A stretch of 64,000 nt of DNA. It comes from Microbacterium proteolyticum. Its GTDB lineage: Bacteria; Actinomycetota; Actinomycetes; Actinomycetales; Microbacteriaceae. Location of the stretch: positions 1,178,001 to 1,242,000 of the forward strand of contig NZ_CP121274.1 in the NCBI RefSeq assembly GCF_029639405.1, given 5' to 3'. The stretch's first letter is position 1. The number at the start of each line of letters is the position of its first letter. This document shows, in pieces, positions 1 through 55,562 of the stretch. The position numbers and the translations under genes are program-made. The notes beneath the pieces were generated by a model. It was not told the DNA's origin and searched no databases. It saw nothing but the letters and a program-made list of their open reading frames with translations.

Positions 1-33
1 CCGGTATATGCCGAGAAGGGAATGAGCCGATAT

Positions 34-1011
34 TCAGCCTGTGTAGCCGTCTTCTCCGAGTACGGCGAGAATCCGATTGAGGTCCTGAATCGTGGCGAAA
101 TCAATGCTGATCTGGCCTTTTCTTGCGGTGAGCGACACCTTGACCTTGGTGTCGAACCGATCACCCAAACGTTCGGCGATGTCGTCGAGACCGGAACGAC
201 GGCTCCCGGCCTTGGGCTTCTGACGAACGGGGGCGACTCCCGGCATCTTGGCCGCGGCCTCGGCCGCCCGGACGGAGAGGTCTTCGTTCACGATCTTGTC
301 GGCGAGCTTCTGCATCTCGCGCGGGTCGTCGAGCGAGAGGATCGCGCGCGCGTGGCCCGCGCTCAAGACGCCGGCCGCGACCCGCTGCTGCACGGGGACG
401 GGGAGCTTCAGCAAACGGATCGTGTTGCTGATCTGCGGACGCGAGCGACCGATGCGGGTGGCGAGCTCCTCCTGCGTGATGCCGAAGTCCTCGAGGAGCT
501 GCTGGTAGGCGGATGCCTCTTCCAGCGGGTTCAGCTGCGATCGGTGCAGGTTCTCGAGCAGCGCGTCGCGGAGGAGGAACTCGTCGTCGGTCTCGCGAAC
601 GACAGCGGGGATCGAGGACAGTCCGGCCTCGCGCGACGCGCGGGTACGGCGCTCGCCCATGATGAGTTCATACGTGCCGTCGCCCTTGTCGCGGACGACC
701 ACGGGCTGCAGGACGCCGAACTCGCGAACGGAGTGGACGAGCTCAGCGAGGTCTTCCGGGTCGAAGTGCGTCCGCGGCTGACGGGGGTTGGGCACGATCG
801 ACTGCGGGTCGATGTGCACCAGCCGAGCGCCCGGGACGGCGACGAGCTCCGACGCCGTGTCATCCACGGGCTCCGTCGCCGAGGTCGTCGCCTTCGACTC
901 CTCGGTCTTCGTGCCGCCGGGGAAGAAGACGTCGACCGGGCGGGCCTCCGACGACTCGGCGGTGGGGATGAGGGCGCCGATTCCGCGGCCCAGTCCGGTT
1001 CTCTTGGCCAT
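34..1011 (-). CDS. parB: Chromosome-partitioning protein ParB
   Basis: 325-aa ParB/Spo0J-family CTP-dependent DNA clamp that loads at parS and spreads to organise the origin for segregation with ParA and SMC. The N terminus (MAKRTGLGRGIGALIP) is typical. The CTP-binding GERR motif is at about residues 119-122, in IMGERRTRAS. A helix-turn-helix lies at about 178-200 (TQEELATRIGRSRPQISN), and a C-terminal dimerisation region follows. The ATG shares one base with the parA stop (TGATG), so the pair is translationally coupled. Seven parS sites lie just upstream of parA. Identification is secure. Confidence 0.98.
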   Translation of the reverse strand: MAKRTGLGRGIGALIPTAESSEARPVDVFFPGGTKTEESKATTSATEPVDDTASELVAVPGARLVHIDPQSIVPNPRQPRTHFDPEDLAELVHSVREFGVLQPVVVRDKGDGTYELIMGERRTRASREAGLSSIPAVVRETDDEFLLRDALLENLHRSQLNPLEEASAYQQLLEDFGITQEELATRIGRSRPQISNTIRLLKLPVPVQQRVAAGVLSAGHARAILSLDDPREMQKLADKIVNEDLSVRAAEAAAKMPGVAPVRQKPKAGSRRSGLDDIAERLGDRFDTKVKVSLTARKGQISIDFATIQDLNRILAVLGEDGYTG

Positions 1012-1928
1012 CAGTCTTCCTTCGTGGTGGTATCGCGTGCGACGATTTCGACCGCGGCTTCGCGGTAGGCGATCGCGCCCGCCGAGTGGCCATCGTAGGC
1101 GATGACCGTTTGTCCGAAGCTCGGCGCCTCCGACACGCGCACAGAGCGGGGGATCACCGTGTCGAGCACCTCATTCGAGAAGTGCTGACGCACCTCATCC
1201 GCGACCTGCTGTGCGAGGCGCGTTCGACCGTCGTACATGGTCAACAGGATCGTCGACACGTGAAGGGCGGGGTTCAGATGCTTCTGGATCATCTGGACGC
1301 TGCCGAGTAGCTGGCTCAGACCCTCGAGCGCGTAGTACTCGCACTGGATGGGGATGAGGACCTCATCCGCCGCCGTGAACGCGTTGATGGTCAGGAGCCC
1401 GAGAGACGGCGGGCAGTCGATGATCACGAAGTCGAGGTGGTTACCGGCATCCGCAAGGTAATCACGCAGCGCCCCGCGAAGCCGATGCTCACGCGCCACC
1501 TGGGAGACCAACTCGATCTCGGCCCCGGCGAGGTGGATCGTGCTCGGAGCGCAGAGGAGGTTCGGCGACTCCGGACTGGTCTGGATGATGTCGGCCAGCG
1601 GGAACTCGTCAATGAGCACGTCGTAGATGCTCGCCGTGTCCGCGTTGTGGGGCACACCGAGTGCGGTCGACGCGTTGCCTTGAGGGTCGAGGTCGATGAC
1701 GAGAACCTTGGCACCCAGCGAGGCGAGGGCAGCCGAGATGTTGACTGCTGTGGTCGTCTTACCGACGCCACCCTTCTGGTTCGACACCGTGAATACGCGG
1801 GTTCGCCCCGACAACTTCACCTCGACTGCCTCCAGCGCTCGGCGCCGAGCCGAGAGATCCGCGAGCTCACGTGCAATGGGGGAGTCCTCGAAGGAGGTCG
1901 AGCCGGACGACTCGCCGGATTGTTTCAC
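1011..1928 (-). CDS. parA: Chromosome-partitioning ATPase ParA
   Basis: 305-aa deviant Walker-A ATPase that moves ParB-parS complexes. The P-loop is KGGVGKTT at about residues 52-59, and DCPPSLGLLT follows in the middle of the protein. The N-terminal extension of about 45 residues is usual for actinobacterial ParA. The start is a GTG whose bases are the centre of a parS palindrome. An AGGAG about 10 bases upstream (1940-1944, read on the minus strand) supports this start. ParB bound there would sit on the translation start, so autorepression is a reasonable inference. It forms an operon with parB. Confidence 0.97.
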   Translation of the reverse strand: MKQSGESSGSTSFEDSPIARELADLSARRRALEAVEVKLSGRTRVFTVSNQKGGVGKTTTAVNISAALASLGAKVLVIDLDPQGNASTALGVPHNADTASIYDVLIDEFPLADIIQTSPESPNLLCAPSTIHLAGAEIELVSQVAREHRLRGALRDYLADAGNHLDFVIIDCPPSLGLLTINAFTAADEVLIPIQCEYYALEGLSQLLGSVQMIQKHLNPALHVSTILLTMYDGRTRLAQQVADEVRQHFSNEVLDTVIPRSVRVSEAPSFGQTVIAYDGHSAGAIAYREAAVEIVARDTTTKED

Positions 1929-1935
1929 GTGAAAC
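1922..1935. promoter_or_regulatory. parS: parS site 1, overlapping the parA start codon
   Basis: Exact 14-bp ParB-binding palindrome GTTTCACGTGAAAC. The GTG start codon of parA (minus strand, 1928-1926) is inside it. Confidence 0.95.
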
Positions 1936-2264
1936 GCGCTCCTTCATCTCCGGGGACAACATCCTCAGTCTACGTGGGCACGCCGACCGTGCGCAGGCGC
2001 GTGTCGGGTTTCGCGGGGCGAATCCGGGCGATCTCCAGGGCGAGTGCCGCGCAAGATCAACGATCGGCGCCGACGAGAAGATGAACACGCACCACTCCGG
2101 ACCAACTCGGACCCGTCGCTGCGGCAGCTGTCTACGAGCACGACGCGCTGGACTCGTCGATCGTGCCGCGCGCGGGGAGCGCGTCTACTCGGTCGTGCCG
2201 GCGTGGAGAGCTGCCGTCCGCACTGACAGGCGGGCACGCCTCGTCATCGCGCCGAAGTGTGGAT

Positions 2265-2278
2265 GTTTCACGTGAAAC
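2265..2278. promoter_or_regulatory. parS: parS site 2
   Basis: Exact GTTTCACGTGAAAC palindrome in the gene-free spacer, 343 bp from site 1. Confidence 0.95.
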
Positions 2279-2775
2279 GTTGTGACTGACGAGCGCATGA
2301 GCGTCGGAGCTCCTGCGACTGTGCGGCATCTGCACCCTGGTGCTGGACCTAAGTGGTCATGGCGTTCTCGCGAGTGTCGTTTGCTCTCGGCAAGCTCTGG
2401 TCATGAAGGGCAGCCCCCGTTCGCCACCGACACAGCCGTTCGTTAGAGTCTCGCGCGTCAGGGGAGTGTGCCGTCACGCCGTCCGGTATCCACTTCCCAC
2501 GCAAGGATCCGCGCAGAACCCGCGCGCTCCGCGGCCTCGCGGGCCGCGCCGGTTCACCGCGACGGCCCGCACTGCCAGAGTGTCGCCCGTGACGCAGCAA
2601 CCGTGTGCGCTGGCCTGAGTCCGCGCCTGACGTCCTCCTCGCCACACCGTGTGACGCGACTCCCCCGATGCGCCTCTTCACCGACGGACTCCGTCACGCT
2701 GGGATCCCGTGACAATCGAGCTGGCGTCTGCGCACCGGACGCGCATCCGGCCTGGCTGAGCAGCGCGGCCTCGAT

Positions 2776-2789
2776 GTTTCACGTGGAAC
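2776..2789. promoter_or_regulatory. parS: parS site 3 (one mismatch)
   Basis: GTTTCACGTGGAAC differs from the 14-bp consensus at one position (A to G in the right arm). It is flanked by TGT...ACA as at the other sites. Confidence 0.8.
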
Positions 2790-3367
2790 ATTTCGGGTCG
2801 GCGCGGGCAGTCGGCGGGTGTCCACGCCGTCAGACCGCGGCTGCTGGCGCCCTGTGTGCCGCCGCACCTCGCGTCGCGCCCCCTGCCACGGCACCACGAC
2901 CTTCCATGCGCCGCCTGCCCGCCGCGCAGCTGAGGTCTGTGAACCGCATCTCGTTGGGGCATGCGCCGATGCCAGCGGCCCGTGACGCTTGGGACAGCGA
3001 CTCCCGGGAAGTGCGGACACCCACGTAGCTGTGCGTGCGCTCCATTGAGAAGGCTCGTCGATCAGACCGCTGCCGGCGGCGTTGTCCGCCGCCACCACAC
3101 GGCGCCCGCGCACAGCATCGCGCGTCGAGAACCGAGATCAGTACTTGGCCGCGCGCACTGATAACCGTCGGCGACCATACCGGCACACTCGGTGGTCCGA
3201 GCGGCTCTCGTTTCCAACGTGTCGGCTACGGCGCGGAGACGACAGTTCCACCGATGGCGGCAATCCCGGTCAACACTTGTTCGTCCCTGCGGGACCCGAA
3301 GTGTCGAGCGGAAGTGCGCGGGGGCGGGGAGGGAAACGACGCGGGGCTCCCCGATGATGGCCTCCAT

Positions 3368-3399
3368 CGCGGTCATGTTTCACGTGAAACATGACCGCG
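3368..3399. promoter_or_regulatory. parS: parS site 4 inside a 32-bp perfect palindrome
   Basis: The exact 14-bp core is at 3377-3390. The dyad continues without mismatch nine bases outward on each side (CGCGGTCAT on the left, ATGACCGCG on the right). No other site here has such a long dyad. Confidence 0.95.
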
Positions 3400-4104
3400 C
3401 CCGGGAGAGTAGATCGGCTGCGTGGGCAGACAGAGAGCGTCGCTGCATCGGTTCCATGGGACGGTTCGATGGTCGACTGATCGCGTGCTCGGGCGTAGCC
3501 CGCACGGCGATGGACGTCACCGCGAAACCGCGCGCAGCTCCACACATCGCCTATCCATATCCCACGGGGCGCAGGGGAGGCTAGCGGCAGCCCACCACCG
3601 GCCGATCTTGTGCTCCGTCCGCATCCTGTCGGTGGCCGCATCTCGGATCGCGGCCCGGGAGGATGGCGAATGGCGCACCCCCGGCGGCCATCCGGAGGCG
3701 TGCCTCCGGACATCAGGCGGGAGCGTCCAGGGCCACCGCCCTCTCCGAAGCCGCCTACACAGACGACGCCGACCCACCGAATGTTGGGCCTCGCCGGGTA
3801 TGCCCACGGAGGAACGGCCCCGTCGTGGGATCAGGCCCCTCGAACACCCTCGGTTCTCTCCCTTGCAACGGTGTCCGCGCCGAGTGCGAACGTGGTCGGG
3901 CGGTCAAGTTCACCCACCGGCGCACCTGACGAGAAGACTTGAACACGGCACGCCACGCCCACTCGCCGCCACGGTGGGCGCGCGATCTCCTCAGGCGATC
4001 GCCCGCAGCTTCTTAGCCGCGAGGCTCCCGGGCCGGTCGAGGCACCAGCGGCCGAGCCGAGCACCGTCTGTGCGTCAATCGTGCCTTATTGGGTCGAACG
4101 CGAT

Positions 4105-4118
4105 GTTCCACGCGAAAC
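4105..4118. promoter_or_regulatory. parS: parS-like site 5 (two mismatches)
   Basis: GTTCCACGCGAAAC, two T-to-C changes from the consensus. The flanks (GAT on the left, AT on the right) resemble those of the good sites. It may be a weak or decayed site. Confidence 0.6.
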
Positions 4119-4358
4119 ATCCGCAGACGGATTTCGCCCGGAACGTTGTTCGCGGGTGGCGCGTGGCGGCTTACCTCCTCGCGCGACCAGCACGCGCAGG
4201 CACCTCAGAGCGACGATGGTGGCGACAAGGCGGGGGGCGGGTGGGGGAGTGGACGCCGGGAATGGCGGATCGACGGTGTCGAGTAGCGATCATCGCCGGA
4301 GCCGCCCAGCAACAGCGTCACCAGAATCTGACGGCGCACGCCGCGATGGTGGCTCGAT

Positions 4359-4372
4359 GTTTCACGTGAAAC
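4359..4372. promoter_or_regulatory. parS: parS site 6
   Basis: Exact GTTTCACGTGAAAC in the gene-free spacer, 254 bp from degenerate site 5. Confidence 0.95.
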
Positions 4373-5410
4373 ACCGCGCGGGTGCGCTTCTTCACCGCGT
4401 ATGTGTACGGCGCGACGCGTCACGCAACGCACCCCGGAACACCAGCGCTCAGGCCACGCAACCGGATGCTCCTCTCCAGGATCAGCGCGCGCCGCCGCCC
4501 GCGCCATACCGAGGGAAGACCGCGCACCCCATCCCGACCAGCGAGCACACGCGGAGGTGGAACAGACACACAAGCCGATGCCCTTTCGGACGTGGTCCGC
4601 GGCATCACGCGGTTCAGTCCGAATGGCTGCGCTCGCCTGCCATCGACCGAGTTCGCGGACTACGCGACATCGCGTGTGCCAGACAGCCTCCGTGCTACCT
4701 GCGTGCACTACGGGATGAGCATTCCCGCTCACGGCCGACGTCCTCCGCGCAACGACCGCCTATCCGGACGTCGACGCGTGGGAACCGCATCGGCATGCGG
4801 ACTCCACCCCGTCATGGTGCGAGAAGGCCAGCAGCCGCCGGCGCGATCGCGGAACTGCGTAGAGCGCGGTACCAACGACGTCCCCGCGACCCCCGCGGTG
4901 TGCGCGCCACCGCCCACGCCTGAAGCGATCAACGGTCGTTCGACGCGCCTCAGACACCCAACCTTCGACGTCAGCCCATCGCCGCGCTGGAGCATGGGGT
5001 GACAGTGGGGGAGTGTGTGCCGACCCATCGACGTGGGACGCGTCACCGATGACAGGGAGCCTTACATTCCGCACGGCCCCAGTCCTGCTGACCGATGCCT
5101 CCCACGAGACCGAACGTCGATCGCCGCGCGACGCCACACCACCACAGGAGGCCGGCGACAGAGTGACAGATTCCGACGACTGAGGCGTCGGCGACACTCA
5201 CAGCGCGGCGCGTCGAAGCCTCAACACGGCCGAAGCCCGCATGAGCCAGATCCCCAGCACCAGGCCGGTCACGCAGCGCATCTCACGCCGCCGCGAACCG
5301 GAGCACGCCCAACTCGCCGAGTCGCGAACTCCCATCTTCTCGGCGCAGCCCCCAAGACGCTCGACCCGCCCCCACTCATTGGTCAAGCAATGGCACCCAC
5401 CTTACGAACC

Positions 5411-5424
5411 GTTTCACGTGAAAC
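5411..5424. promoter_or_regulatory. parS: parS site 7
   Basis: Exact GTTTCACGTGAAAC about 50 bp upstream of the GH16-like gene. It is the last site before coding sequence resumes. Confidence 0.95.
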
Positions 5425-5473
5425 AGTCACGACCCCGCGCCCGGCAGAGGCGTGGCCCACTCCGACGGCATCC

Positions 5474-6295
5474 ATGTCAGACCTCCACGGCAGACTGGCT
5501 GTCATGCTCCGAACGCCGGGTGATCCACTCTCGCCACCCCCGACCTCCGCGCCCGCCATCGACGACGATTTCTCGGGCGGCGAGCTCGCGCCGGTGTGGG
5601 TTCCGCACTACCTGCCGCATTGGACGACGGCGGACAGATCGGCCGCACGGCTGGCCTTCACGCCCGAAGGCATCGATCTGCGCATCGAGGAAGACCAGCT
5701 CGAGTGGCGTCCCGAGGACGGCCAGATGCGAGTCTCGAATCTGCAGACCGCCACCTTCTCGGGCACGCTCGGATCGAACGTGGGAACACACCGCCACCGT
5801 TCGGACGGACTCCTCGTTCGTACGCACACCCCGACGAGCCTTCACTACGCCCCGACGGCCGGCCGTGTCGATGTCACGCTGCGGGCCAGCACCGATCCCG
5901 ACTGCATGACAGCCATCTGGCTGGTCGGCACCGAACACGACGACCCGCGAGACTCGGGAGAGATCTGCGTCGCGGAGATCGACGCGGATGCCATCGGCGC
6001 GAGCACGCGCGTGCGGTGCGGCATCAAGGCCCACCACGACGAACGGCTCCGCACCGACATGATCGCGACGAGCGTTCCGCACGACGCGTCGCGCTTCCTC
6101 ACCTGGAGCGTCGAGTGGGGCGGGGGAGTGACCACCATCGGGTGCGAGGGACGCCTCGTCGCCGCCTTCGATCAGGCTCCGGCGTATCCCCAGATGCTTC
6201 TCATCGACGTGTTCGAGATGTCACCCGATCGAGGCGCCTACCCGAAAGCGGCAACGGTGAGGCGCGTGAGGGCGTGGTCGACAGACTCCCATTGA
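5474..6295 (+). CDS. GH16-like concanavalin-fold protein, probably catalytically altered
   Basis: 273 aa from ATG 5474; ATG 5504 (263 aa) is an alternative, and no strong ribosome site decides. The frame is open further upstream but only through the parS spacer. The protein resembles family-16 beta-glucanase domains: DDFSGGELAPVWVPHYLPHW near residues 31-50, then alternating beta-strand-like segments. The canonical catalytic motif E-I-D-x-x-E appears as AEIDADA at 167-173, so the second acid is not where expected. No signal peptide is visible, so a cytoplasmic or binding role is possible. It stands alone between the parS array and rsmG (convergent). Family assignment is moderate and function unknown. 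Confidence 0.65.
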   Translation: MSDLHGRLAVMLRTPGDPLSPPPTSAPAIDDDFSGGELAPVWVPHYLPHWTTADRSAARLAFTPEGIDLRIEEDQLEWRPEDGQMRVSNLQTATFSGTLGSNVGTHRHRSDGLLVRTHTPTSLHYAPTAGRVDVTLRASTDPDCMTAIWLVGTEHDDPRDSGEICVAEIDADAIGASTRVRCGIKAHHDERLRTDMIATSVPHDASRFLTWSVEWGGGVTTIGCEGRLVAAFDQAPAYPQMLLIDVFEMSPDRGAYPKAATVRRVRAWSTDSH

Positions 6296-6305
6296 ACGGG
6301 AGTAG

Positions 6306-6935
6306 CTAACGCGTGACGGTCGCCGTCAGGACGCGCGTCGGTTCGTCGACCACGCCCTCGCCCACGACATGCACCTCGATGTCGGACACACCGAAGCGCC
6401 GGATCTGCTTCTCCGCCGCGTCGACCTCGGCCGCCACATTCGCGCCCTTGAGGTAGGCGAGTCGCCCTCCCACGCGCGCCAGCGGCGCGGTCCACGGAAT
6501 GAGCGTCCTGAGCGCACTGACGGCACGTGCGGTGACGACATCGAACACGCGACCCTTGGCCCATTCCTCGGCGCGGAGACGCTCCACGGTGACGTTCTCG
6601 AGGCCGAGGTCGGCGACCTGCTCGCTGAGCCAGATGGTCCGCCGCTCCATGGGCTCGATGAGAGTGAACTCCACGTCCGGTCGTGCGATCGCGAGCACGA
6701 CACCCGGAAGTCCCGCACCCGACCCCACGTCCGCGACTCGCCCCTCGAAGAACGGTGCGGCCACCGCACTGTTGAGGATGTGCCGGGTCCAGAGCCGCGG
6801 CACCTCGAGCGGTCCGATCAGACCACGTTCTTCGCCATGAGCGGCCAGCGCCCTCGTGAACCGGCGTGCCAGATCGATGCGGTCGCCGAACAGCGCCGCC
6901 GCGGCATCCGGTTCCGCTTCGAGTTGGTTGCCCAC
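6306..6935 (-). CDS. rsmG: 16S rRNA (guanine527-N7)-methyltransferase RsmG
   Basis: About 209 aa from GTG 6935. GTG 6980 is an alternative that would overlap the khpB end by 35 bases. The enzyme methylates G527 of 16S rRNA using S-adenosylmethionine. The binding motif DVGSGAGLPG is at about residues 69-78, and EPMERR follows. The N-terminal region ALFGDRIDLARRF and LWTRHILNS are typical of the family. It is last in the rpmH-rnpA-yidD-yidC-khpB-rsmG series. In many actinobacteria parA follows immediately; here it is about 4.4 kb away. Confidence 0.95.
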   Translation of the reverse strand: MGNQLEAEPDAAAALFGDRIDLARRFTRALAAHGEERGLIGPLEVPRLWTRHILNSAVAAPFFEGRVADVGSGAGLPGVVLAIARPDVEFTLIEPMERRTIWLSEQVADLGLENVTVERLRAEEWAKGRVFDVVTARAVSALRTLIPWTAPLARVGGRLAYLKGANVAAEVDAAEKQIRRFGVSDIEVHVVGEGVVDEPTRVLTATVTR

Positions 6936-6945
6936 GTCGAACGGA

Positions 6946-7449
6946 TCAGCCGCGACGCAGCACGGTGTGTCGGTCCGCACCCTCACCGAAGGACTCGGAG
7001 GAGTACCCGCGGTCAGCCGCGATGTCGTGCACGAGCTTGCGCTCGTAGCTCGACATCGCCGGCAGCGACGCCTGCGAAGCACCTTCCTCGAGACGCTGGA
7101 TGGCACGGTCGACGAGGTTCTCGAGCTGACGCTGGCGCGCATCGCGCGAGCCGCCGATGTCGAGGATCAGACGCGAGAAGCGTCCCGTCGAGTTCTGCAC
7201 GGCCAGGCGGGTGAGTTCCTGCAGAGCTTGGACTGTGTCGGGGTGCGAGATCGTCGACAGCGCGGAGGCGTCCTCGGCCTCGACGGACACGTACGCACGG
7301 CCGGCGCGTACGTCGAGCGCCAGGTCGCCGTCGATATCGGCGATGTCGAGGAGCCCTTCCAGGAAGTCGGCGGCGACGTCGCCCTCCTGCTCCAGCTGCT
7401 CCTCGGTGGCGGCGGTGTGCTCGGTCGCGATCTGCTCGGACGTCGTCAT
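6946..7449 (-). CDS. khpB: R3H/KH RNA-binding protein (Jag/KhpB family)
   Basis: 167-aa small RNA-binding protein encoded after yidC, as in most bacteria. The acidic N terminus is followed by a KH-like segment (about 45-95) and a C-terminal R3H domain with SSYERKLVHDIAADRG and DRHTVLRRG. It lacks the long Jag-N domain of Firmicutes, as is normal in actinobacteria. The gap to yidC is 18 bases, so co-transcription is likely. A role in RNA binding linked to membrane insertion or division is inferred from the family. Confidence 0.93.
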   Translation of the reverse strand: MTTSEQIATEHTAATEEQLEQEGDVAADFLEGLLDIADIDGDLALDVRAGRAYVSVEAEDASALSTISHPDTVQALQELTRLAVQNSTGRFSRLILDIGGSRDARQRQLENLVDRAIQRLEEGASQASLPAMSSYERKLVHDIAADRGYSSESFGEGADRHTVLRRG

Positions 7450-7467
7450 CTCATGGTCTCCAGGTGC

Positions 7468-8541
7468 TCAGGAGGGGGAGTCGGTTCCGGGCTTCGCGGT
7501 CGTCCGCGGAGCGGTTCCGGAGGCCTTGGGGGACTGCTGCTGCTTCTTGGCGCGCTGCTTGCCGACGGGCTGCTGACGCTTGGGCTGTGCGGCGCGTGCG
7601 CGCTCGGCCTCTTCGAACAGGCGCTGCTGCTCGGCCTCGTACTTCTCGATCGGAACAACCTTGCCGCTCGAGTCGATCGCCTTGCCCTTGCGAGCGAGCC
7701 GCTCTTCCCGCGCCTTCGCGGCATCCGATCCGGGAGTCGGCATTTCGCGGATGACGACGAACTGCTGCACCATCGTCCACAGGTTGCTGACGAACCAGTA
7801 GATGACGACGCCGAGGGGGAAGAAGACACCCGAGAAGATGAAGGCCAGCGGCAGGATGTAGAGCATGATCTTCTGCATCTGGTACGCCTGACCGGTCTTG
7901 GCCTCCGGCGACAGGTTCTTCGAGATGATCTGCAGCTGCGTGAAGAACTGCGACGCGATCATCAGCACGACGAGCGTCAGCAGGATCGCGACGGTGACCT
8001 GACCGTCGGACTGGCCCCACGCGGTGACGAGGTTGACGTGCATGGATGCCACGTCGAACAGGCGCGCGTCGTAGAACTCGCGGGTCAGCTCCGGGGTCAG
8101 CAGACCCACACCGCCGAGACCGCTCGTGGCGTGCTTGGCGACGTCGTTCAGCACGCTGAACAGGGCGAAGAAGATGGGCATCTGCACGAGCAGCGGCAGG
8201 CAGCTCGAAACCGGCGTGGTGCCGTGCTTCTTGTAGAGCGCCATGGTCTCGCGACTCATCGCCTCGCGCGAGAGCTGGTCCTTCTTGCCCCGGTACTTCT
8301 CCTGCACCTTGCGCAGCTCGGGGGCGATCTCCATCATCTTGCGCTGGCTCTTGATCTGCTTGACGAAGAGCGGGATGAGCGCCGCCCGCACGATCAGAAC
8401 GAGGCCGATGATCGACAGCACCCACGTGAGGCCCGCGGCCGGAGGCATGCCGACCGCGGTGAAGAGCGCATGCCAACCGACCAGCACGAGCTCGACGGCC
8501 CATTTCAAGGGCCAGAGGACGATTCCAATGAGATCCGGCAC
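7468..8541 (-). CDS. yidC: Membrane protein insertase YidC
   Basis: 357-aa YidC/Oxa1/Alb3 insertase that helps proteins enter the cytoplasmic membrane with or without SecYEG. About five membrane segments are visible (LTWVLSIIGLVLIVRAALIP; LPLLVQMPIFFALFSV; ILYILPLAFIFSGVFFPLGV region). The hydrophilic cytoplasmic loop and the KYRGKKDQ region are present. The C-terminal tail of about 90 residues is Lys/Arg/Gln-rich and could contact ribosomes, as proposed for other Gram-positive YidC proteins. It begins three bases after the yidD stop. Confidence 0.97.
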   Translation of the reverse strand: MPDLIGIVLWPLKWAVELVLVGWHALFTAVGMPPAAGLTWVLSIIGLVLIVRAALIPLFVKQIKSQRKMMEIAPELRKVQEKYRGKKDQLSREAMSRETMALYKKHGTTPVSSCLPLLVQMPIFFALFSVLNDVAKHATSGLGGVGLLTPELTREFYDARLFDVASMHVNLVTAWGQSDGQVTVAILLTLVVLMIASQFFTQLQIISKNLSPEAKTGQAYQMQKIMLYILPLAFIFSGVFFPLGVVIYWFVSNLWTMVQQFVVIREMPTPGSDAAKAREERLARKGKAIDSSGKVVPIEKYEAEQQRLFEEAERARAAQPKRQQPVGKQRAKKQQQSPKASGTAPRTTAKPGTDSPS

Positions 8542-8544
8542 GGA

Positions 8545-8901
8545 TCAGTCCTTTCGGGAGGGCACGACGAAGCCGTGCGGAGTGAGTTCGTGACGGAAGG
8601 CGCGGTGCGGACGGACGTCGTCGATGCCTCCCTGAGCCCAGGGGTGGCAGCGGGCGAGGCGGGCCGCGGTCAACGCGGCACCTTTGACGAGTCCGTGCTG
8701 CTGCACGGCGCCCACCGAATAGGCGGAGCAGGACGGGTAGTACTTGCACACGTCGCCGTAGACGTGCGAGATCGTCGCGCGGTAGGCGTGCAGAAGGGCG
8801 AGGCCGGCATTGCGGGGGAGAAGCGGAACGGATGCCGCGATGGTGTCCCACTCCAGATGTCCGACGCCGGTGGACGAGGCGGGCAGCGTTGACGAGCTCA
8901 T
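8545..8901 (-). CDS. yidD: Membrane protein insertion efficiency factor YidD
   Basis: 118 aa. The signature region contains CKYYPSCSAYSVGAV and CHPWAQGGIDDV, the conserved cysteine-rich YidD core. The ATG overlaps the rnpA stop (ATGA), so translation is coupled. The frame is open upstream inside rnpA, but only this start fits the family. An N-terminal extension of about 35 residues precedes the core. Confidence 0.95.
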   Translation of the reverse strand: MSSSTLPASSTGVGHLEWDTIAASVPLLPRNAGLALLHAYRATISHVYGDVCKYYPSCSAYSVGAVQQHGLVKGAALTAARLARCHPWAQGGIDDVRPHRAFRHELTPHGFVVPSRKD

Positions 8902-9236
8902 GCGGCGGCCTTGCGCTGCAGGCACCGGACGACGTCGGCGCGGAGATCGGCGTAGTCGACGGTGGCGGCCGACGGGAGCGCGCGGATGACGACCGAGGCG
9001 CCCCCGCGGACGAGCGGGAGCGCCTCGGCGCACACCGCCTTGAGACGGCGGCGGACGGTGTTGCGTGTGACGGCGGAGCCGACCTGGCGGCTCACGATGA
9101 AGCCGAACCGTGCGGGACCTTCGTCCGGCACGCTGCCGACGTAGGTGACGGTGTGCGTTCCGGCACACCGAGAACCCCGACGGACGGTGGCTTTGTAATC
9201 CGATCCGCGGGTGAGTCGGTTCGGCTTCGCGAGCAC
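8898..9236 (-). CDS. rnpA: Ribonuclease P protein component
   Basis: 112 aa from GTG 9236, reading (V)LAKPNRLTRGSDYKATVRRG, a standard RnpA start. It binds RNase P RNA to mature tRNA 5' ends. The RNR motif is RNTVRRRLKA in the second half, with FGFIVSRQVGSAV before it. The start lies nine bases after the rpmH stop, the classic rpmH-rnpA arrangement. The longer open frame upstream overlaps rpmH and is not used. Confidence 0.97.
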   Translation of the reverse strand: MLAKPNRLTRGSDYKATVRRGSRCAGTHTVTYVGSVPDEGPARFGFIVSRQVGSAVTRNTVRRRLKAVCAEALPLVRGGASVVIRALPSAATVDYADLRADVVRCLQRKAAA

Positions 9237-9244
9237 TAGGTGGG

Positions 9245-9382
9245 TCAGGCCGAGAGCTCGGTGCGGCCCTTGGCGCGACGCGCCGCGAGGATGCCGCGGC
9301 CGGCGCGCGTACGCATACGGGCGCGGAAGCCGTGCTTCTTGGCGCGACGGCGGTTGTTGGGCTGGAAGGTGCGCTTGCTCAT
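9245..9382 (-). CDS. rpmH: 50S ribosomal protein L34
   Basis: 45 aa, below usual gene-finder length. It reads [20 protein letters not shown] and ends GRTELSA. The whole protein is basic and matches bacterial L34 end to end. It is the first gene of the leftward origin-proximal series and is divergent from dnaA. Confidence 0.98.
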
Positions 9383-9677
9383 GGGTCACTCCGGAGGTGA
9401 TGTCACCCGATGCTCTTCTGCCGGGGGACGTGGTCGGGACTGCCGTGTAGGCATAAGTCAACCGACTAAGGCTACGTCGTGCGCGACGTTAACTCAAACC
9501 GGGAGGTCGACCGCTCATTATCCCCAGGCGTCGTCCACACCCGTGGCAAAGACACGCGAGCGCGTTCTACAGTTGATTTGGCTCCGTGCGGACCGCGAAC
9601 TAGCGTGTCCCCGGAAGTTATCCACAGGTTCGGCGCGCTGCACGTCGACAGTCGCGCGCCGAGATCCCGGAGGGGAT
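9383..9677. promoter_or_regulatory. rpmH-dnaA intergenic region with DnaA-box-like sites
   Basis: 295 bp holding the divergent promoters of rpmH and dnaA. One perfect DnaA box TTATCCACA is at 9618-9626. Near matches are TTATCCCCA (9518-9526) and TCGTCCACA (9531-9539). A GTTAAC palindrome is at 9488-9493. The boxes sit close upstream of dnaA, so DnaA autoregulation is likely. Whether this segment is also part of oriC cannot be told from sequence alone. Confidence 0.75.
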
Positions 9678-11102
9678 ATGTCATTGCACCAAGTACCGGA
9701 TGTTCCCGTCTGGTCCGCCGTGCTCGACCATCTCCTCACCGATGACCGCGTCACCCCGCAGCTCCACGGCTTCCTGAACCTCGCCGTTCCGCAGGGCGTC
9801 ATGGGGGGCACGCTCTACCTCGACGTCCCGAACGACCTGACCGCGGCGCAGATGAACAAGCGCATGCGCGCGCCCATCCTCGAGGCGCTCACGCAGGTGC
9901 AGGGCGTCGACCCCGAAGTCAGCAACTTCCGCGTGGTCGTGAACCCCGACCTCATCGAGTCGCACCGTTCCGCACCCGCCGCCGACGAACGACCGGTCGC
10001 GAACTCGACACCGAACACCCACTCGCCCCTGCCCGAGCAGGCGCCCGACCCGATCGTCCCGGCATCCCGGAACGACACGCGGTTGAACCCGAAGTACACC
10101 TTCGACAACTTCGTCATCGGGCAGTCCAACCGCTTCGCGCATGCCGCCGCGGTCGCCGTGGCCGAGGCCCCCGCGAAGGCGTACAACCCGCTCTTCATCT
10201 ACGGCGACTCCGGACTCGGCAAGACCCACCTCCTCCACGCGATCGGCGATTACGCCGCGAGCATGTACGCCGGCATCCGCGTGCGCTACGTCTCGAGCGA
10301 GGAGTTCACGAACGACTTCATCAACTCGATCGCGAACAACCGCGGCTCGGCCTTCCAGGCCCGCTATCGCGACGTCGACATCCTGCTCATCGACGACATC
10401 CAGTTCCTGCAGGGTCGCGCCGAGACGCAGGAAGCGTTCTTCCACACCTTCAACACGCTGCACGATCACGACAAGCAGGTCGTCATCACCAGCGACCTCC
10501 CTCCGAAGCAGCTCACCGGGTTCGAAGACCGCATGCGCAGCCGCTTCGAGTGGGGTCTCATCACCGACGTGCAGGCGCCCGACCTGGAGACGCGTATCGC
10601 GATCCTCCGCAAGAAGGCGCAGAGCGAACGACTCCTCATCCCCGACGACGTCCTCGAGTACATCGCGACCGTGGTCTCGTCGAACATCCGCGAGCTCGAG
10701 GGCGCGCTCATCCGCGTGTCCGCCTTCGCCAGCCTGAATCGCTCGACGCTCGACATGTCTCTGGCGCAGACCGTGCTCCGCGACATCATCGACCAGGACG
10801 ACGCGAACGTGGTCTCGCCGACCGACATCATCACCGCGACCGCGCAGTACTTCAAGCTGTCGGTCGACGATCTCTACGGGTCGAGTCGGTCGCAGGCCGT
10901 GGCCACGGCGCGACAGATCGCCATGTACCTCTGCCGTGAACGCACGAGCCTGTCCCTGCCGAAGATCGGGCAGCTGTTCGGCAACCGCGATCACACGACG
11001 GTGATGTACGCGTACAAGAAGATCAGCGACCTCATGAAGGAGCGGCGCTCGATCTACAACCAGGTGTCCGAGATCACGACGCAGCTGGGGCGCATGCGCT
11101 GA
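9678..11102 (+). CDS. dnaA: Chromosomal replication initiator DnaA
   Basis: 474 aa. The ATG follows GGAGGGG closely and gives MSLHQVPDVPVWSAVLDHLL; the frame is open further upstream but overlaps rpmH. Domain I is N-terminal, and a Pro-rich linker lies at about 95-135. The AAA+ domain has Walker A GDSGLGKTHLL and Walker B LLIDDIQFLQ. Domain IV ends with the box-recognition signature FGNRDHTTVMYAYKKI. It binds DnaA boxes on both sides of its own gene. Confidence 0.99.
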   Translation: MSLHQVPDVPVWSAVLDHLLTDDRVTPQLHGFLNLAVPQGVMGGTLYLDVPNDLTAAQMNKRMRAPILEALTQVQGVDPEVSNFRVVVNPDLIESHRSAPAADERPVANSTPNTHSPLPEQAPDPIVPASRNDTRLNPKYTFDNFVIGQSNRFAHAAAVAVAEAPAKAYNPLFIYGDSGLGKTHLLHAIGDYAASMYAGIRVRYVSSEEFTNDFINSIANNRGSAFQARYRDVDILLIDDIQFLQGRAETQEAFFHTFNTLHDHDKQVVITSDLPPKQLTGFEDRMRSRFEWGLITDVQAPDLETRIAILRKKAQSERLLIPDDVLEYIATVVSSNIRELEGALIRVSAFASLNRSTLDMSLAQTVLRDIIDQDDANVVSPTDIITATAQYFKLSVDDLYGSSRSQAVATARQIAMYLCRERTSLSLPKIGQLFGNRDHTTVMYAYKKISDLMKERRSIYNQVSEITTQLGRMR

Positions 11103-11115
11103 GCGCCCACCTGAA

Positions 11116-11160
11116 CTGAGGGGTTCCTCCGCATCCGCGGGCGAACCCCTCAGTCGTTTT
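11116..11160 (+). terminator. Intrinsic terminator of dnaA
   Basis: An 11-bp stem (CTGAGGGGTTC at 11116-11126 pairing with GAACCCCTCAG at 11143-11153) is followed by TCGTTTT. It separates dnaA transcription from the origin. Confidence 0.85.
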
Positions 11161-11189
11161 CGCGCGCCAGCGGGGCCGTCAGCGACGTT

Positions 11190-11480
11190 CGCGGCAGATC
11201 TTTTACTCGGTTCTACACAGTGTGGAAAACCTGTGGATAACTCGAATTCTCTGCGGAAGACATGTGAACGACACGCGTCCGCCTGTGGAGGAAGCGGAGA
11301 ACCCGCACTCGACCGAACGTGTTAACTGCCCAGGCTCTCCGCAAGGCGTCCACAGATCACACGCGTGTAGTTCCCTTGTGTTAACACGCCTCGCGCGAGT
11401 TATCCACACTCTCCACAGCTGTTAACAAGATGAAGAATCCATTGATGAGTTAACAGAGGTTCGATGACCTTGCAGTGCGA
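11190..11480. other. oriC: Replication origin oriC (dnaA-dnaN intergenic)
   Basis: An A+T-richer stretch with clustered DnaA boxes. Perfect boxes are TGTGGATAA at 11232-11240 (reverse) and TTATCCACA at 11400-11408. Near matches are TGTGGAAAA 11221-11229, TGTGGAGGA 11284-11292, GCGTCCACA 11346-11354 and CTCTCCACA 11409-11417. Four GTTAAC palindromes occur at 11321, 11380, 11421 and 11449, and an ACACGCGTGT dyad at 11359-11368. An AT-rich run at about 11421-11455 could be the unwinding element. Left genes read left and right genes read right from this region, as expected for the origin. Confidence 0.92.
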
Positions 11481-11552
11481 ACGTGTGCCGACGTGTGCCG
11501 ACTCGGTCGGGCACTAGCATGGGTAAGCCATACCGCCGTCAAGGGAGCGCCC

Positions 11553-12704
11553 GTGAAGTTTCACGTCAATCGCGATGTCTTCAGCGAAGCCGTTTCGTTC
11601 GTGGTCAAGCTCCTGCCACAGCGCAACCCCCAGCCGATCCTCGCCGGTGTGCTGATCGAAGCGGGCGAGCAGGGTCTCACCCTCGCCGCGTTCGACTACG
11701 AAGCATCCGCCCGCACCACGATCGAAGCGACCGTCGACGAGCCGGGAACGATCCTCGTCCACGGCCGTCTGCTCTCCGACATCGCGAGCCGGCTCCCCAA
11801 CGCGCCCATCCAGATCGCGGTCGACGACGACGGCGGTATCCTGCTCACGTGCGGCTCGGCCCGCTTCACGCTGGCATCCATGCCCGTGCAGGAGTACCCG
11901 GCCATCCCCGAGGTCACCGGCGAGTCCGGTCTGGTCCCCGCCGACGACTTCGCCACCGCGATCGCGCAGGTCGCCTTCGCCGCGTCGCGAGACGACGTCA
12001 CCCCCGTCCTCACGGGTGTGCAGCTCGAGGTCACCGGCACGCAGCTGAGCCTCGTCGCCACCGACCGCTACCGCGTCGCGCTCCGCGAGATCCCCTGGGA
12101 CGGCGGGGCTGCGGCATCCGACGAGCCCACGGCCGCCCTCGTGCCGGCACGCACGCTGCAGGAAGTCGGCAAGACCTTCGCGCACGGCGGCGACATCTCG
12201 ATCGCCTTCTCGGGCTCGGGCGACCGCGAGATCATCGCCTTCTCTTCGGGCAACAAGACCGTCACGTCGCTGCTCATCAAGGGCAACTTCCCGCCCGTGC
12301 GCCGTCTCTTCCCCGCGCAGACCGAGCACCACAGCGTCGTCAACACCGCAGAGCTCGCCGAAGCCGTGCGCCGTGTCGCCCTCGTGCTCGACCGGTCCGC
12401 CCCGCTGCGCTTCACCTTCGGTCCGGACGGGGTGTCGATGGACGCCTCGGGCACCGAGCAGGCCCGCGCGACGGAATCCGTCGACGCGACGCTCGTCGGC
12501 GACGAGGTCACCCTCGGCCTGAACCCGCAGTACCTGCTCGAGTCCCTCGGCGCCGTCCGCAGCGAGTTCGCGCGCATCACGTTCACCTCGAGCGACAACG
12601 CCAACAAGCTCAGCCCGGTGCTCATCACCCCGCAGACCTCGGTCGACAAGGGCGGCGAGGGCTCGTTCAAGTACCTGCTGCAGCCCAATCTCCTCCTGCG
12701 CTGA
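11553..12704 (+). CDS. dnaN: DNA polymerase III sliding clamp (beta subunit)
   Basis: 383 aa from GTG 11553 (KFHVNRDVFSEAVSFVVKLL), the usual DnaN start in actinobacteria. The frame is open a little further upstream into the origin. Three clamp domains are recognisable, with ATDRYRVALREIPW near the middle and the C-terminal KYLLQPNLLLR ending. It tethers DNA polymerase to the template. It stands immediately downstream of oriC and upstream of recF. Confidence 0.98.
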   Translation: MKFHVNRDVFSEAVSFVVKLLPQRNPQPILAGVLIEAGEQGLTLAAFDYEASARTTIEATVDEPGTILVHGRLLSDIASRLPNAPIQIAVDDDGGILLTCGSARFTLASMPVQEYPAIPEVTGESGLVPADDFATAIAQVAFAASRDDVTPVLTGVQLEVTGTQLSLVATDRYRVALREIPWDGGAAASDEPTAALVPARTLQEVGKTFAHGGDISIAFSGSGDREIIAFSSGNKTVTSLLIKGNFPPVRRLFPAQTEHHSVVNTAELAEAVRRVALVLDRSAPLRFTFGPDGVSMDASGTEQARATESVDATLVGDEVTLGLNPQYLLESLGAVRSEFARITFTSSDNANKLSPVLITPQTSVDKGGEGSFKYLLQPNLLLR

Positions 12705-55424: not shown

Positions 55425-55562
55425 GCTACCGGCCGCACGTCGCTGTGACGGTGGGGAGGGGACGGGAGGACATTCGGCGAAGGGAGGACCCGGAAGCGGG
55501 AGCGCGTCCTCCGTTCCCCGTTTCTCCTCCGCTCCCCACGCCGAGCGACGCGAGCGCCCGGC

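Follow-up and report, generated by a model that had tools for sequence, protein, structure and literature searches.

Gene-free parS array between rsmG and parA in Microbacterium proteolyticum: conserved boxes in drifting DNA, within a genus-wide size series

In Myxococcus xanthus, a 3-kb cluster near the origin, some 4 kb upstream of parA, is described as containing 22 putative parS repeats (PMC3899335; PMC3778016). For Corynebacterium glutamicum, ten clustered parS sites are reported, nine of them intergenic, where ParB is recruited and the fold of the chromosome starts (PMC7083940), and for Streptomyces, 20 or more parS sites near the origin are given (PMC7333895). A 2020 review asks why parS number varies if one site often suffices, how this affects segregation and what drives clustering (PMC7333895). 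Here, a parS array is described from a 64,000-nucleotide stretch (the window) of the 3.97 Mb genome of Microbacterium proteolyticum (contig NZ_CP121274.1, positions 1,178,001 to 1,242,000), where it lies between the genes rsmG and parA. The array is the sole cluster of exact parS sites on the chromosome. It is gene-free, its boxes are strongly conserved within freely drifting DNA, and it is one point in a genus-wide size series. It was not found described in a literature search on Microbacterium, segregation and parS, the coverage of which mostly excludes subscription journals.

With GTTTCACGTGAAAC as the parS consensus, the 64-kb window holds eight matches with up to three mismatches, compared with 1.13 expected (0 of 100 shuffles reached eight). 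Seven of them lie within 3.5 kb, at about 500 bp per site and with start-to-start spacings of 343, 511, 601, 728, 254 and 1052 bp; the eighth, at 11558, has two mismatches. An earlier sequence-only reading of this DNA had listed five exact and two degenerate sites in 1922-5424, about 250-1050 bp apart. The scan recovered all seven at 254-1052 bp, and the five exact sites are the only exact copies in the genome. Sites and spacer are as follows, none with an assigned strand; G379 is a second genome of the same species.

1922..1935: parS 1, exact; holds the GTG start of parA; unchanged in G379
2265..2278: parS 2, exact (consensus match; G379 comparison)
2776..2789: parS 3, one mismatch, GTTTCACGTGGAAC; complement of the commonest one-mismatch variant of the genus
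3377..3390: parS 4, exact; centre of a 32-bp perfect palindrome, 3368-3399
4105..4118: parS 5, two mismatches; one mismatch in the same-species genome
4359..4372: parS 6, exact (consensus match; G379 comparison)
5411..5424: parS 7, exact (consensus match; G379 comparison)
1936..5410: gene-free spacer holding the parS array; no 3-base periodicity; 77.8% identity to the same-species genome

The palindrome at 3368-3399 is shorter in the same-species genome, and a 28-bp palindromic match to it occurs in another genome (G491). Palindromy beyond the 14 bp of parS is in weak excess over the first 4-5 positions only; the 32-bp case is an outlier.

The DNA between the sites changes rapidly. In a search of 366 genomes of the genus, the spacer was matched over its full length (1-3473 of 3475 bases) only in G379, that is, in 1 of 365 others. 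A further 18 genomes matched only in short pieces; for seven, the piece consists of the 38-44 bp that adjoin parA (86-100% identical). In global alignment with G379, identity is 98.1% for parB, 96.8% for parA, 96.3% for rsmG and 94.9% for an open reading frame (ORF) resembling glycoside hydrolase family 16 (GH16) next to rsmG, compared with 77.8% for the spacer, which carries 759 substitutions and 39 insertion or deletion (indel) events (64 bases in, 62 out, a net length change of 2 bp). The six parS sites apart from the one at parA have 1 change in 84 bases, whereas the spacer between 2040 and 5410 has 752 in 3309 (P=6e-9). The degenerate site at 2776 is unchanged in G379 and that at 4105 is nearer to the consensus there (one mismatch); therefore, judged by their sequences, both degenerate sites look functional. 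The leader next to the parA-side parS is also retained, with 1 substitution in 73 bp followed by 25 in the next 92.

The spacer has diverged more than synonymous positions. Over 59 kb aligned with G379, 10,159 fourfold degenerate sites are 93.5% identical, giving Jukes-Cantor (JC) distances of 0.071 for these sites and 0.271 for the spacer (ratio 3.8). Other putative intergenic DNA, a set that holds some coding DNA as it comes from a simple gene caller, is 97.0% identical over 6,980 bp, and the 39 indels in 3.3 kb of spacer compare with a few in these approximately 7 kb. Three other close pairs likewise differ more in their spacers than at fourfold sites: L098/L099 (0.80 identity at fourfold sites; 3.5 of 8.6 kb of spacer can be aligned, mostly at 60-75%), L038/L072 (0.76, spacer ~68%) and L093/L105 (0.77, spacer ~72%). 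The block might also be a mutation hotspot, in which ParB-bound or SMC-loading DNA mutates faster. However, the ratio falls to 2.0 for G-C exchanges and 1.7 at A/T sites; thus, part of the excess reflects codon and GC (guanine plus cytosine) selection at fourfold sites, where GC is 0.89, and such selection may explain much of it; L042/L070 show no excess (68% spacer, 64.5% fourfold identity). A raised mutation rate in the block is possible, although a hotspot is an improbable account of the divergence. Alternatively, the spacers could be deep alleles held apart by recombination, coalescing earlier than their flanks and too divergent to recombine with one another. Identity does shift sharply just past the parA leader and before the GH16-like gene, as this would predict, but breakpoints would be required close to each end of the block, with parA, parB and rsmG still 96-98% identical, and divergence inside the spacer is fairly even (identity 0.67-0.87 across 34 windows). 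This history appears quite improbable. Comparing rates between the window and L005/L007 was dropped, fourfold sites being already saturated (identity 0.44-0.47 among the three), and other low-periodicity stretches yielded no neutral yardstick, the longest, in L253, lying almost wholly in a part that has no close match in G379. Another short stretch of the window, 55425-55562, is poorly conserved in G379 (67% identity, 37 bp absent).

The block is without recognisable genes, as the sequence-only reading had held. Three-base periodicity of GC stays at the shuffled level over a 3.8-kb run from approximately 1830 to 5610, whereas no other periodicity-free run of the window exceeds 630 bp, and samples totalling 480 kb from the rest of the genome contain none longer than 930 bp. 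Nine ORFs of the block (134-315 aa) were searched against Pfam, and none of these nine reached a curated cut-off; the best weak match was to EccE (E=0.025, 15.4 bits, cut-off 23.7). Long open frames are present because of the high GC content, and they are what could suggest cryptic genes or a long non-coding RNA filling the block. The missing codon periodicity, the nine ORFs without a Pfam family, the lack of any Rfam match at the gathering threshold in 1-12000 and the 39 indels of many lengths relative to G379 all speak against such content, as does a consensus scan of 1936-6400 in which no promoter- or terminator-like site was found, a scan of low power (0.2 and 1.0 expected). Hidden genes or RNAs can be given almost no weight. 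Decayed genes were also rejected as the content of the block, given that it has neither periodicity nor a protein family.

To place the array in its genus, 119 Microbacterium genomes were searched, of which 118 had rsmG and six were dropped for lack of parA on the fetched stretch, leaving 112. Sites with up to one mismatch were counted. The rsmG-parA interval ranges from 91 bp to 11.4 kb (median 2.07 kb), reaching at least 1 kb in 90 of the 112 genomes and remaining under 300 bp in 14. The number of parS sites per interval ranges from 1 to 18 (median 7), with extremes of one site in 91 bp and 18 sites in 7.4 kb. Length and site number vary together (Spearman 0.85), also in 111 independent contrasts of their logarithms on a parA+parB+rsmG tree (r=0.77 with true counts). 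Certain counts credit every genome with one site at parA, the real figure being 85 of 112; with this added site, r is 0.75 and the log-log slope of site number on length is 0.38, compared with 0.41 for true counts. Site density drops from about 17 sites per kb where the interval is shorter than 300 bp to 1.7 per kb where it is longer than 4 kb. Interval length tracks the tree (contrast variance 0.71, compared with at least 2.7 in 300 label shuffles). Genome size was considered as a driver (Spearman 0.38, 112 genomes) and is not claimed because the contrasts are weak (r=0.23, P=0.015; sign agreement 61 of 106).

The sequence-only reading had proposed that conserved length and site number over unconserved sequence would favour a spacer role. 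This is largely the pattern in 21 hand-picked genomes (the window, its near relatives and the Microbacterium testaceum group), where the interval is 2.8-5.6 kb (mean 4410, standard deviation (sd) 684) with 5-10 parS, the parA site being credited throughout, and where the spacer itself is alignable at full length only as far as G379. It had also reasoned that parS sites equally dense elsewhere would count against a special block. Genome-wide counts were available for 29 genomes, the overlap of 34 other same-genus genomes with the 112, and all 190 of their exact parS sites lie in the fetched par locus, 174 of them in the rsmG-parA interval. One of the 34, G016 (86% complete), has no exact parS. 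Outside the interval, the 112 loci have 72 exact parS 500-900 bp past the rsmG stop (median 642), close to where rsmG starts, a position at which the window genome has none. In L073, a second group of parS-like sites (exact and one-mismatch) lies beyond parA and parB, about 2-4 kb from the parA start.

The long intervals of the genus resemble that of the window in being mostly non-coding. The coding-like fraction has a median of 0.04 across the 90 intervals that reach 1 kb, compared with 0.82 of windows outside, and 20 of 701 parS sites fall in coding-like windows. Such windows make up 5.2% of parS-bounded blocks and 29% of the remaining interval, which in the window is where the GH16-like gene lies. 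GC is below that of the surroundings in 87 of the 90; in the window genome it is 0.68 in the interval and 0.67 around it.

The sets used for coding content, spacing and repeats add named loci and relatives found by spacer similarity and exclude two duplicate assemblies and G379. From 752 sites a sharp consensus emerges, gatGTTTCACGTGAAACatc, tapering off within 3 bases of the core, and among 114 one-mismatch sites, 56 are a single variant, GTTCCACGTGAAAC or its complement. ParB is reported to bind also the half-site GTTCCAC in other systems (PMC7022226). The sites are spaced more evenly than by chance (98 arrays, mean z -1.05, t=-12.7), and the smallest spacing in an array has a median of 134 bp, compared with 44 bp in simulations. 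Even spacing persists (z -0.98) in the 58 arrays with less than 5% internal repeat.

Of 100 arrays, 30 have over 20% of their spacer in internal repeats. In four chosen arrays (L070, L051, L078 and L106), the repeated units are approximately 170-300 bp long with one parS each, and between units parS is 96-100% identical while the rest is 68-85% identical. In L051 and L078, which have unusually long intervals, parS recurs near-periodically about 275-300 bp apart. Relics of parS are also in excess in intervals of at least 1 kb, with 22 at two mismatches and 19 at three, compared with 0.4 and 5.8 in shuffles, although they are few beside 589 exact and 110 one-mismatch sites. The arrays are likely to have arisen by tandem duplication, after which all but the parS sites drifted. 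The array of the window presumably had the same origin, although its spacer retains no repeat.

Selection for distance between sites is favoured by the even spacing, the rarity of short distances and the persistence of long gene-free DNA. Its rival is that parS number alone is selected and that tandem units carry the inter-site DNA along, spacing and length being functionless by-products. Tandem units are directly visible in the 30 arrays just mentioned, no constraint on spacer sequence is seen beyond parS and the parA leader, and the indels of the same-species pair are balanced and mostly small, all of which speaks for a by-product. On the other hand, short spacings are under-represented also in arrays without a remaining repeat, site number scales with length at an exponent of only 0.41 rather than in proportion, and the 480 kb sampled elsewhere in the genome hold no non-coding run above 930 bp. 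The by-product is possible but on balance unlikely. Tandem duplication of parS-bearing units could, however, yield regular spacing by history, and selection on distance as such is a favoured reading rather than a result. The proposal of the sequence-only reading that the spacer itself is selected has partial support, which does not extend to selection on length itself.

Loading of ParB at parS and its subsequent sliding are established in other species (PMC7053999; PMC8299390; PMC10387095). By analogy, we infer that ParB would load at each parS of the array as a clamp dependent on cytidine triphosphate (CTP) and slide into the inter-site DNA, and that ParA and SMC would act on the ParB-coated block. 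The filler sequence would be disposable, with parS boxes, separation by hundreds of bp and absence of genes maintained: separation, it is proposed, because more clamps load at spaced than at packed sites, and absence of genes because gene-free DNA spares the clamps encounters with transcription. At the rsmG-parA junction, units with a parS would be duplicated in tandem or deleted, making the array longer or shorter, and the units would afterwards drift past recognition. The effect of layout was modelled as steady-state sliding with single occupancy, 20-bp sites, a turnover of 64 s, loading at 200 times the off-rate and diffusion of about 0.01 square micrometre per second, with parameter values as given in PMC10387095 and, as a simplification, unlimited ParB. 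The model binds 334 clamps at the spacing of the window, 247 for seven sites 40 bp apart and 119 for one site; with tenfold faster stripping of clamps outside the array, it binds 157 at the window spacing and 64 at 40 bp. The advantage of spacing grows as diffusion falls. In this model, then, parS layout could matter for clamp load.

The preferred reading is that the block is an expandable centromere for ParB loading, free of genes and with disposable filler, which owes part of its growth to tandem duplication; we assign this reading a probability of about 0.58. Several observations weigh against it. The genomes are related, and therefore the 98 arrays are not fully independent. No repeat is found in 56 of 100 arrays, that of the window included. 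Among the 90 parS-bounded blocks, 13 exceed 15% coding-like windows, and 3 of 44 inter-parS gaps of at least 900 bp are largely coding-like (L026, L088 and, less clearly, L080). Net constancy of length in a single same-species pair is weak evidence, since 39 indels with random signs would give an sd of 42 and a 2-bp change therefore says little. In a model of Caulobacter ParB, sliding is described as largely unaffected by transcription, the data being fitted without a transcription effect (PMC10387095). A single parS is reported to be enough in C. glutamicum (PMC7083940); together with the 14 intervals under 300 bp, this implies that the long form is not essential. A stronger version, given less than even odds, would see a satellite-like bacterial centromere of tandem units of about 100-300 bp with one parS each, in which spacing is retained because the gap from one ParB loading site to the next counts, genes are excluded, evolution is faster than in the surroundings and size is set per lineage.

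The genes around the array are as follows.

34..1011, minus strand: parB; Pfam ParB_N, HTH_ParB and ParB_C, all over cut-off
1011..1928, minus strand: parA; Pfam AAA_31 and CbiA, from the ORF list; GTG start (1928) inside the first parS
1936..2008, minus strand: conserved parAB leader, with a probable ribosome-binding site and promoter, from comparison with G379
5504..6295 (approximate), plus strand: GH16-family-like gene, array boundary on the rsmG side and outside the centromere; from the names of homologues, start putative
6306..6932, minus strand: rsmG, neighbour; Pfam GidB, start putative

The locus has the parts of a ParABS system: a Walker-type ParA, a ParB with N-terminal, HTH and dimerisation domains, and consensus parS adjoining parAB. 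By these parts, the block together with parAB is classed as a ParABS centromere. By ParA, the scan places Microbacterium testaceum strains closest among named relatives (89 and 88%). The start codon of parA falls within a parS and is probably preceded directly by a ribosome-binding site. Of 128 loci, 98 have a parS between -60 and +30 relative to the projected start of parA (85 of the 112 genus loci). ParB bound at such a site could control parAB expression. The GH16-like gene has no Pfam match itself, and some of its 822 homologues at E<=0.001 are named GH16 or carry PF00722. Strong tblastn matches to this gene, placed between rsmG and the array, are seen in G379, L005, L270, L271 and L274, with a weaker one in L273. 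DnaA-box-like matches form two clusters, 9518-9626 and 11221-11408, a possible oriC region approximately 4-6 kb from the array.

Outside Microbacterium, 40 loci were picked by hand, one per genus, from 74 other Microbacteriaceae genera with an rsmG match, and one lacked parA. Of the remaining 39, 24 have an interval under 300 bp and 11 one of at least 1 kb (up to 4.5 kb, with up to 7 parS). Among named loci (80, of which four lacked rsmG, leaving 76), 5 of the 66 outside Microbacterium reach 1 kb. A compact junction is thus the usual condition, and the tendency of the family to expand it is most marked in Microbacterium. The remark of the sequence-only reading that rsmG and parA are usually adjacent is accordingly right for most of these genera, but the long interval is not unique to the window.

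The genus provides a natural series at one syntenic junction, in which site number, spacing and gene content are separable and open to experiment. Shorter and longer versions in relatives allow the question of why bacterial centromeres grow to be asked, and with the series it can be tested simply whether ParB platforms depend on DNA free of transcription.

Compared with the described systems, the window resembles M. xanthus in having many parS within a few kb beside parA, with up to 18 in relatives, whereas the M. xanthus cluster is much denser (about 140 bp per site, compared with about 500 bp). The comparison is by description only, and the M. xanthus descriptions, as far as available, make no mention of a gene-free spacer, inter-site drift or a genus-wide graded series. 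C. glutamicum is likewise an actinobacterium with clustered parS, but there the sites are reported to extend over 35 kb and several intergenic regions, 73 kb from oriC, rather than forming a single block without genes beside parA (PMC7083940). In the fetched Streptomyces loci, the rsmG-parA gap also holds parS, mostly two sites, but is only about 0.4-0.6 kb long. In eukaryotic satellite centromeres, a conserved protein-binding box lies within fast-changing, tandemly grown filler. The likeness of conserved boxes in rapidly changing, tandemly expanded filler is one of analogy only: the bacterial arrays have no nucleosomes, tens of units at most, sequence-specific ParB loading and no common descent with satellites, and the spacer of the window, being without internal repeat, lacks recognisable repeated units of the satellite type. 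Clustered parS are thus already known from Myxococcus and Corynebacterium, and the gene-free array with drifting filler is a new variation on them.

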